Shown here piece after piece: positions 7,610 to 26,525 of a stretch of 32,108 nt of DNA. A program made the translations under genes and the position numbers. The notes under the pieces were generated by a model that saw only the letters and a list, made by a program, of their open reading frames with translations, made no database searches and was not told the origin of the DNA. Each line of letters opens with the position of its first letter. The first letter of the stretch is position 1. Source of the stretch: Candidatus Saccharimonadota bacterium (GTDB taxonomy: Bacteria; Patescibacteriota; Saccharimonadia; Saccharimonadales; Saccharimonadaceae); assembly GCA_030530605.1 (NCBI GenBank), contig JAUMUO010000006.1:1-32108 (forward strand), read 5' to 3'.

Positions 7610-7619
7610 TATCTTCATC

Positions 7620-7650
7620 AAAAAACCTCGCTACTTGCGAGGTTTTTTGT
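7620..7650. terminator. Bidirectional intrinsic terminator between tspO and ftsH
   Basis: The stem CCTCGC/GCGAGG with loop TACTT is flanked by A6 on the left and T6 on the right, so it serves as a terminator on both strands for the convergent genes tspO (+) and ftsH (-). Confidence 0.9.
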
Positions 7651-10479: not shown

Positions 10480-10554
10480 CGGGGGTTGGCGCAGTGGTAG
10501 CGCGCACGCCTGGGGGGCGTGAGGTCGCCAGTTCGAGCCTGGTACCCCCGACCA
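10480..10554 (+). tRNA. tRNA-Pro (anticodon GGG)
   Basis: Cloverleaf: acceptor CGGGGGT/ACCCCCG, with the C1-G72 pair typical of bacterial tRNA-Pro; D-arm GCGC...GCGC; anticodon stem CACGC/GCGTG with loop CTGGGGG giving GGG; T-arm GCCAG-TTCGAGC-CTGGT; discriminator A; encoded CCA (10552-10554). The CCA is also the first triplet of the hairpin element that follows. Confidence 0.95.
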
Positions 10555-10620
10555 TTTCGAGCCACTGGCTCGAAATGGAAAGGCAAACTCGCGCGCGAAT
10601 GTGCGCGAGGCAAACTTACC
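10552..10620 (+). repeat. tRNA-3'-associated two-hairpin element, copy A
   Basis: It starts at the tRNA CCA. Hairpin 1 has 13-nt perfect arms, CCATTTCGAGCCA and TGGCTCGAAATGG, with one central base. Then comes AAAGGCAAA, hairpin 2 with 9-bp arms CTCGCGCGC/GTGCGCGAG around GAAT, and AAACTTACC. Copies B (22357-22424) and C (25960-26027) share this layout. In this copy GGCAAACT occurs on both sides of hairpin 2. No T-run follows, so it is not a classical terminator. Confidence 0.85.
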
Positions 10621-15740: not shown

Positions 15741-15816
15741 TGGTCTGGGTGATCGGACTTGAACCGACGACCTCAGCGTCCCGAACGCTGCGCGCTACCA
15801 ACTGCGCCACACCCAG
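15741..15816 (-). tRNA. tRNA-Pro (anticodon CGG)
   Basis: Acceptor CTGGGTG/CACCCAG with C1-G72; D-arm GCGCAGTTGGTAGCGC; anticodon stem CAGCG/CGCTG with loop TTCGGGA giving CGG; T-arm GTCGG-TTCAAGT-CCGAT; A73 and encoded CCA (15743-15741). Unlike the other three tRNAs it is not followed by the two-hairpin element; the Shine-Dalgarno GGAG of the glycosyltransferase gene follows the CCA at once. A TGCTAAAAT extended -10 box is at 15829-15837. Confidence 0.95.
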
Positions 15817-22307: not shown

Positions 22308-22356
22308 AATATAATTTCCAGGTTTACCTTTCCTCCAACTTCCACAGGAAGTTTCT

Positions 22357-22424
22357 GGTAAGTTTCCTCGCGCGCTATTGCGCACGAGTTTGCCTTTCCA
22401 TTTCGAGCCACTGGCTCGAAATGG
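22357..22424 (-). repeat. tRNA-3'-associated two-hairpin element, copy B
   Basis: Read on the minus strand from the CCA of tRNA-Pro(TGG): hairpin 1 arms CCATTTCGAGCCA / TGGCTCGAAATGG with one central G, then AAAGGCAAA, then hairpin 2 arms CTCGTGCGC / GCGCGCGAG around AATA, then GAAACTTACC. Hairpin 1 is identical to copy A except for the central base; hairpin 2 differs from copy A in ways that keep pairing on the tRNA-sense strand through T-G wobbles. Confidence 0.85.
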
Positions 22425-22497
22425 TCGGGGCGACCTGACTCGAACAGGCGACCTCTGCGTCCCAAACGCAGCGCGCTACCAACTGTGCCACGCCCCG
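22422..22497 (-). tRNA. tRNA-Pro (anticodon TGG)
   Basis: Acceptor CGGGGCG/CGCCCCG with C1-G72; D-arm GCACAGTTGGTAGCGC; anticodon stem CTGCG/CGCAG with loop TTTGGGA giving TGG; T-arm GCCTG-TTCGAGT-CAGGT; A73 and encoded CCA (22424-22422). TGATATAAT lies 8 nt before the 5' end. The CCA is the first triplet of element copy B. Confidence 0.95.
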
Positions 22498-25959: not shown

Positions 25960-26027
25960 GGTAAGTTTTCTCGCGCGCTATCACGCACGAGTTTGCCTTT
26001 CCACTTTATGCCGCTGGCATAAAGTGG
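25960..26027 (-). repeat. tRNA-3'-associated two-hairpin element, copy C
   Basis: Read from the CCA of tRNA-Arg(CCG): hairpin 1 arms CCACTTTATGCC / GGCATAAAGTGG around AGC, then AAAGGCAAA, then hairpin 2 arms CTCGTGCGT / GCGCGCGAG around GATA, then AAAACTTACC. Hairpin 1 differs from copies A and B at many positions, yet every change is matched on the other arm; the linker and hairpin 2 are nearly the same. Confidence 0.85.
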
Positions 26028-26101
26028 TACACCCAACACGATTCGAACGTGCGACCTTCAGTTCCGGAAACTGACGCTCTATCCAGCTGAGCTATGGGTG
26101 C
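26025..26101 (-). tRNA. tRNA-Arg (anticodon CCG)
   Basis: Acceptor GCACCCA/TGGGTGT (first pair G-T); D-arm GCTCAGCTGGATAGAGC; anticodon stem TCAGT/ACTGA with loop TTCCGGA giving CCG; T-arm GCACG-TTCGAAT-CGTGT; A73 and encoded CCA (26027-26025). TGGTATAAT is at 26113-26121, 11 nt before the 5' end. Confidence 0.94.
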
Positions 26102-26302: not shown

Positions 26303-26525
26303 GGTACAGATATACAGGCAAAGAGATGTGGACGCGTCCCAAGGGGCGTTCGAACTTTTAAAGGTTTATAGCTTTACTGGAGCCATAAGAGCTTAAAACA
26401 ATGACAATGGAGAAAATAAAAAACGACAACGTCAATAGCTAATTAATCCAGTGATATAATATGAGCAGTAGCGGTTAAAAGTTTTAAAATTAAATATAAT
26501 AGAAATGAAGGAAAGGAAGGAATGA
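26303..26525. other. Non-coding stretch before the deaminase gene
   Basis: No gene seen. The first part may hold further decayed TfoX-like sequence. TGATATAAT at 26452-26460 is a candidate extended -10 for the deaminase gene, leaving a leader of about 60 nt rich in GGA repeats. Confidence 0.45.

Follow-up and report, generated by a model that had tools for sequence, protein, structure and literature searches.

What is a double-hairpin sequence of 68-69 bp doing on the very end of a tRNA gene, where it starts from the CCA of the tRNA itself? The question arises from the window, the whole stretch of 32,108 nucleotides analyzed here, which originates from a Candidatus Saccharimonadota bacterium (contig JAUMUO010000006.1). 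ARAGORN finds four tRNA genes in this stretch, and three of them are followed by the element. An earlier note had placed the copies at 10552-10620, 22357-22424 and 25960-26027 and had offered three readings, a 3'-processing or protection signal for tRNA precursors, a small RNA released with the tRNA, and a palindromic mobile repeat for which the CCA serves as target. The copies are indeed present, directly on the CCA of tRNA-Pro(GGG), tRNA-Pro(UGG) and tRNA-Arg(CCG). The fourth gene, tRNA-Pro(CGG) at 15741-15816 on the reverse strand, has an ACCA end without the element and represents an unoccupied site within the window.

Structure and covariation of the element

Read in the sense of the tRNA, the element has the layout A/C-left arm-CC NNN GG-right arm-G, A, AXG, GYAAAC, hairpin 2, GGAA(G)A, CX'T, A/C, where the slashes mark the borders of the unit. 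In copy A, on the forward strand, the tRNA-Pro(GGG) gene extends from 10480 to 10554, and its CCA at 10552-10554 doubles as the first three nucleotides of palindrome 1 (10552-10578), which has 12-bp arms, a 3-nt loop and a CCNNNGG center. Hairpin 2 (10588-10609) has 9 bp and a GAAT loop and is closed by a further, covarying stem of 3 bp that the earlier note had overlooked. Here the AXG half at 10580-10582 pairs with the CX'T half, CTT, at 10615-10617, and the middle pair covaries between AU, CG, GC, GU and UG. Judging from identical copies in another genome, G429, and from the recurrent pattern of A/C at the start and TA/ at the end, the mobile unit would comprise the 67 bp from C to TA at 10552-10618.

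Copies B and C are located on the reverse strand. The unit of copy B has 66 bp (22359-22424), with palindrome 1 at 22398-22424 and hairpin 2 at 22367-22388, and is borne by tRNA-Pro(UGG) (22422-22497). Directly behind it, on the same strand and with approximate ends at 22320 and 22358, follows a second copy, decayed and truncated, that retains a palindrome with a TGT loop plus AAAGGTAAAC. Copy C, on tRNA-Arg(CCG) (26025-26101), also has a unit of 66 bp (25962-26027), with hairpin 2 at 25970-25991 and a palindrome 1 (26001-26027) whose arms differ from those of the other two copies. Besides the three 27-bp palindromes, the window has no perfect inverted repeat that combines a 3-nt loop with arms of at least 9 bp. 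Unrelated to the element is a 13-bp inverted repeat at 7619-7649, likewise perfect, which has a 5-nt loop.

As evidenced by comparison with shuffled sequences, all three copies fold far below expectation, with z-scores of -7.3, -8.9 and -7.5 for RNA and of -6.7, -9.0 and -7.2 for DNA of the tRNA-sense strand; the opposite strand folds more poorly. That the arms of palindrome 1 change together, as had been claimed from the window copies, is borne out by an alignment of seven copies, in which 100% of cells are paired and eight pairs show two-sided changes, with no pair changed on one side only. Among 41 distinct copies, all 12 pairs vary on both sides and 97.7% of cells are paired; the first hairpin is free to change its sequence yet remains a near-perfect palindrome. 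Hairpin 2 and the AXG/CX'T stem covary as well in this set. On every measure of covariation, none of the 500 shuffles and none of the slid controls reaches the observed value, in an alignment of the 41 copies that was fitted to a covariance model and thus leans towards structure, and with which an independent MAFFT alignment of seven copies agrees.

The further argument of the earlier note, that the kinds of substitution point to a single strand of tRNA sense, holds in part. Hairpin 2 has 12 G-U cells against 4 A-C cells, in line with the poorer folding of the opposite strand, and palindrome 1 has 4 against 8, so that the argument is valid for hairpin 2 only. Roughly half of the copies have two G-A pairs in the middle of hairpin 2. 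Note that in genomes G286 and G425 (L074, L144) this hairpin is larger by roughly 30-37 nt holding a reversed, degenerate GCGTCC..GGGGC core, apparently one repeat family nested in the other. The element was rightly described as no plain terminator. No T-run follows either hairpin in the window copies, and the succession of a G+C-rich hairpin and a T-run that marks an intrinsic terminator is absent from them; many copies do have a T-run at some distance downstream. In a search of Rfam 15 the sole match above the gathering score was the tRNA, and the element matched no family.

Distribution, site choice and mobility

Copies in the genome of origin (G000) were sought by pattern first and then with a covariance model built from seven copies, and a broader model was used for a class-wide search. 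By pattern and covariance model, this genome of 0.68 Mb holds nine good copies. Five are directly on a called tRNA (Pro GGG, Pro UGG, Arg CCG, Met and Val GAC) one is on a tRNA-like minihelix and three are located elsewhere; the description of the element as locked to the CCA is too strong. The minihelix (G000:C4, about 160030-160070; L008/L046) lies between tRNA-Ile and tRNA-Ala and has an acceptor-like stem ending in CTCCACCA, close to the 3' end of tRNA-Ala. The element sits on its CCA.

Within the genus 17 of 174 genomes carry the element, with 1-9 copies found per genome, and the class-wide search of 393 genomes from 153 genera retrieved it in this one genus of Saccharibacteria only. When 84,980 species genomes were scanned with the pattern, convincing copies likewise came from Saccharibacteria only, many from the ruminant gut and one from an oral strain. 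Matches outside Saccharibacteria had chance-level scores and were rejected, as were 11 pattern matches in viral contigs, none of which scores with the covariance model.

The search of the own genome and its relatives with a covariance model, proposed earlier as a check, thus did yield further copies with compensatory changes. Half of the copies examined (23/46) lie on called tRNA 3' ends, all in the orientation of the tRNA and 0 in the opposite one; beyond these, one copy is on a tRNA cut by a contig end and one on a duplicated tRNA 3' half. Every called tRNA that bears a copy ends in ACCA, and by manual count roughly a third of the tRNAs in the genome of origin have another discriminator. Counting both strands, the window contains 293 ACCA words, of which only four are tRNA ends, and all three insertions (3/3) are found at tRNA ends. 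Copies away from tRNAs mostly begin at A/C, and many of them lie at the end of a gene or follow an older copy. Several are at or near the ends of genes, the adjoining ones being, as we take it from our own reading of the translations, lepA, nusG, aspS and a LOG-like gene, and one is inside an open frame that stays open. Two such copies (L065 1501-1600; L135) end just before a CIRCE-like repeat (TTAGCACTC-N9-GAGTGC) that precedes apparent hrcA and clpB genes, and a CRISPR-like array with the repeat GTTTGAGAATCGTGTAAAATAATCGTATAACTAAAC is located near an element copy (L062, upstream of 1501; G027:C3).

Occupied and empty versions of one site are available at tRNA-Val(GAC)/tRNA-Lys(UUU). In about 28 congeners a short native spacer follows right after the CCA and there is no element, while in G000 the CCA leads into the element, after which come TACCA and a spacer of native appearance, and G428 has the left arm only. 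In G429, two units are identical over C...TA at unrelated sites, one after tRNA-Met and the other behind the tail of an older element following tRNA-Pro(UGG), which points to recent movement. The empty sites and the identical copies at two unrelated sites lead us to conclude that the element is mobile. Intact copies occur in tandem in G428, and decayed second copies are found behind copy B of the window and elsewhere. With these tandems, the sporadic presence and the copies off tRNAs, the evidence clearly favors the third of the earlier options, a palindromic mobile repeat with the CCA as its target. At two apparently orthologous sites with two tandem copies each, L052 in G000 and L083 in G307 (both 1501-1600), the outer arm bases of both copies agree within a genome and differ between genomes, as if exchanged in concert.

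We consider it probable that the sequence is a tiny mobile element, non-autonomous and similar in kind to REPs or miniature palindromic elements, that is addressed to tRNA ends. The unit, 66-67 bp in the window and composed of a perfect palindrome, a conserved linker, hairpin 2 with its covarying 3-bp stem (AXG/CX'T) and a final TA, would enter an AC(CA) site between its A and its first C and would strongly favor the ACCA with which a tRNA gene ends. Insertion would always occur in the tRNA sense, by which the tRNA would retain its CCA. An enzyme acting in trans would most likely recognize the folded single strand of tRNA sense.

Flanking sequence and the origin of the arms

At off-tRNA sites the left arm and the downstream flank share 100 prefix bases, compared with 37.5 expected from shuffled pairings (p about 5e-5), in a sample of 20 copies some of which are related and several of whose downstream flanks are older element copies. 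The sharing extends up to about 12 bases, and in some copies comprises AC or ACC only. At tRNA sites ACCA is shared and then nothing beyond chance (6 bases vs 7.9), so that a duplication of more than 4 bp is not general; the left arm there cannot change, because it is the CCA. Of the positions at which the arms mismatch, 12 have the base of the flank in the left arm and two have it in the right arm. The flanks of the identical copies in G429 differ from position 4 on. Since the left arms at these two unrelated sites are identical, an origin of the entire left arm from native target was rejected as a general rule, and it survives for the outer few bases only.

Taken at the level of sequence, the sharing with the flank off tRNAs suggests a target duplication. 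The outer left arm would apparently be target sequence duplicated at insertion, and the right arm would then match it or be brought to match. Most simply, the outer left arm would be a short stretch of duplicated target, the right arm would move along with the element, and the two would be equalized later. A bolder version, which we regard as doubtful, would have the palindrome act as a target-reading device: an arm of the unit would base-pair with the landing site, be it a tRNA CCA or another sequence, the site would be duplicated as the other arm and the pair then perfected, and every copy would thereby bear an address set by its latest landing site. If true, and taken with a second, unrelated repeat family of these genomes whose arms also derive from tRNA 3' ends, it would amount to a novel principle for addressing mobile DNA, through hairpins that write their own address.

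Candidate movers, alternative readings and known systems

A point against a non-autonomous mobile element is that no mobilizing enzyme was identified. A Y1 transposase gene is found in 8 of 174 genomes and in 1 of 17 carriers, with none in G000 and 15 others. Genes for reverse transcriptase turn up in 98 of the 174 genomes, including 8 carriers out of 17; none was found in G429, which has the freshest copies, though this genome is 89% complete. Neither tracks the element, and both were rejected as its resident mover. No longer, autonomous version with the same left end was detected in the 17 carriers, and two extra pattern matches in that search proved not to be elements. The mover would either act in trans or have been lost.

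That the unit is a standard miniature of the IS200/IS605 or RAYT type, its hairpins recognized by a Y1 HUH transposase that inserts it 3' of a short target and its AXG guiding cleavage at CX'TA(C), is in our estimate unlikely. As in the ends of IS200/IS605 elements and their miniature derivatives, there are single-strand hairpins, two of them on one strand, and the right end pairs with a short stretch on the 5' side of hairpin 2, which recalls the pairing of a guide with its cleavage site (PMC8266576). AXG and CX'T do covary, though they may simply close a stem, and TTAC or TCAC precedes many off-tRNA copies. However, 16 of the 17 carriers have no Y1, a GTAG motif is missing, and the left hairpin, palindrome 1, abuts the junction and leaves no space for a left guide. 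The IS200/IS605 family moreover makes no target duplication, which the shared flank bases suggest here.

Quite unlikely, too, is an RNA element of the tRNA precursor with a 3'-processing, protection or small-RNA function, kept because its transcript folds beside the acceptor stem. The element is probably transcribed with the tRNA, since a T-run or a terminator-like hairpin lies downstream of many copies; the preference of hairpin 2 for G-U over A-C on the tRNA strand and its G-A pairs are in keeping with RNA, and in the predicted fold of tRNA plus element the acceptor stem stays intact with the CCA paired to UGG. Against this, palindrome 1 has no strand preference, 157 of 174 congeners lack the element, about 28 of them have a tRNA-Val(GAC) gene without it, and about half of the copies are off called tRNAs. 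A conserved 3'-processing or protection signal is hence unlikely as its primary role. A CCA within a hairpin should moreover hinder maturation rather than help it, and as the element-bearing tRNAs are apparently single-copy in G000, the cell must free this CCA. No result of the analysis showed a benefit for the host, and a REP-like non-autonomous element has no need of a role in RNA processing.

Movement through RNA, in which a reverse transcriptase, starting or switching at ACCA ends, copies a tRNA-like transcript with a terminal ACCA and so builds arrays of tRNA-ACCA-element-ACCA, is very unlikely. Units do end in (T)ACCA at tRNA sites, occur in tandem, prefer tRNA ends and have sense-strand structure in hairpin 2. 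The reverse transcriptase is however not associated with the element, as its distribution among carriers and the lack of a match in the 89% complete G429 indicate, and off-tRNA copies end in ACGGC, ACAACA and others, so that ACCA is not an intrinsic end of the unit. An integron-like or other tyrosine-recombinase exchange, with the palindrome as a folded recombination site and A/C as crossover, would fit palindromes variable in sequence and conserved in structure, tandem arrays and hybrid left arms at the junction, but is highly improbable, as attC core boxes (R and L boxes, GTTRRRY) were not seen on inspection by eye and the crossover would fall at the edge of the palindrome.

Among known systems REPs are the nearest kind. 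They comprise a GTAG type with RAYT and a CGTC type that includes RPE-4 and RPE-6 of Rickettsia. Our element, a short non-coding, non-autonomous palindromic stem-loop, resembles them in being small and in its location downstream of genes and sometimes within them, and we also count their recognition as single-strand hairpins as a likeness. Some REPs are perfect palindromes around a loop of 3 nt (PMC8266576), and for the CGTC type no transposase is known (PMC3733652). Unlike REPs, the element has no fixed GTAG or CGTC tag, its right end being X'TAC with a variable X' (GTA plus G, A or C on the reverse strand); it has few copies (1-9), two hairpins in fixed order, an address at tRNA ACCA and a palindrome sequence that is not conserved between copies. 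Because both this tag and the RAYT (Y1) gene of GTAG-type REPs, missing in G000 and 15 other carriers, are lacking, we do not class it as a REP. Yeast mitochondrial GC clusters and mitochondrial double-hairpin elements are likewise tiny, palindromic or double-hairpin, mobile and without coding sequence, and GC clusters have a direct repeat of very few bases, AG or ACT, at their borders and are prone to fusion (PMC4478555). In contrast to these, the present element is bacterial, its arms vary freely while paired, it prefers tRNA ends and it shares up to about 12 bases with its flank.

In the openly accessible literature we found neither a matching palindromic mobile element at tRNA CCA ends nor a palindrome of this kind from Saccharibacteria, in agreement with the earlier note, which knew of no such element. 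As a rule, a mobile element that uses the 3' end of a tRNA is large and comes with an integrase. The present one makes do with 66-67 bp, the CCA of the tRNA is kept and the hairpin sequence is free to change while paired. The element therefore offers a tractable case for the spread of palindromic repeats without an enzyme, such as REPs and mitochondrial hairpin elements, and for the tolerance of bacteria towards a stable hairpin directly on the CCA of a tRNA gene.

The second repeat family mentioned above has a fixed core, GCGTCCCAAGGGGC, and is found in the window at 26334-26347 on the forward strand as well as in L014, L025, L227, L256 and others, with up to about 20 copies per genome. It resembles CGTC-tagged REPs. 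Like the element it is palindromic, often located at tRNA 3' ends and has arms copied from its target; it differs in its unrelated core, its greater number of copies and the inclusion of a duplicated tRNA 3' end. Its inverted arms are copied from the tRNA end, and in the genome of origin it occurs in tandem behind tRNA-Trp.
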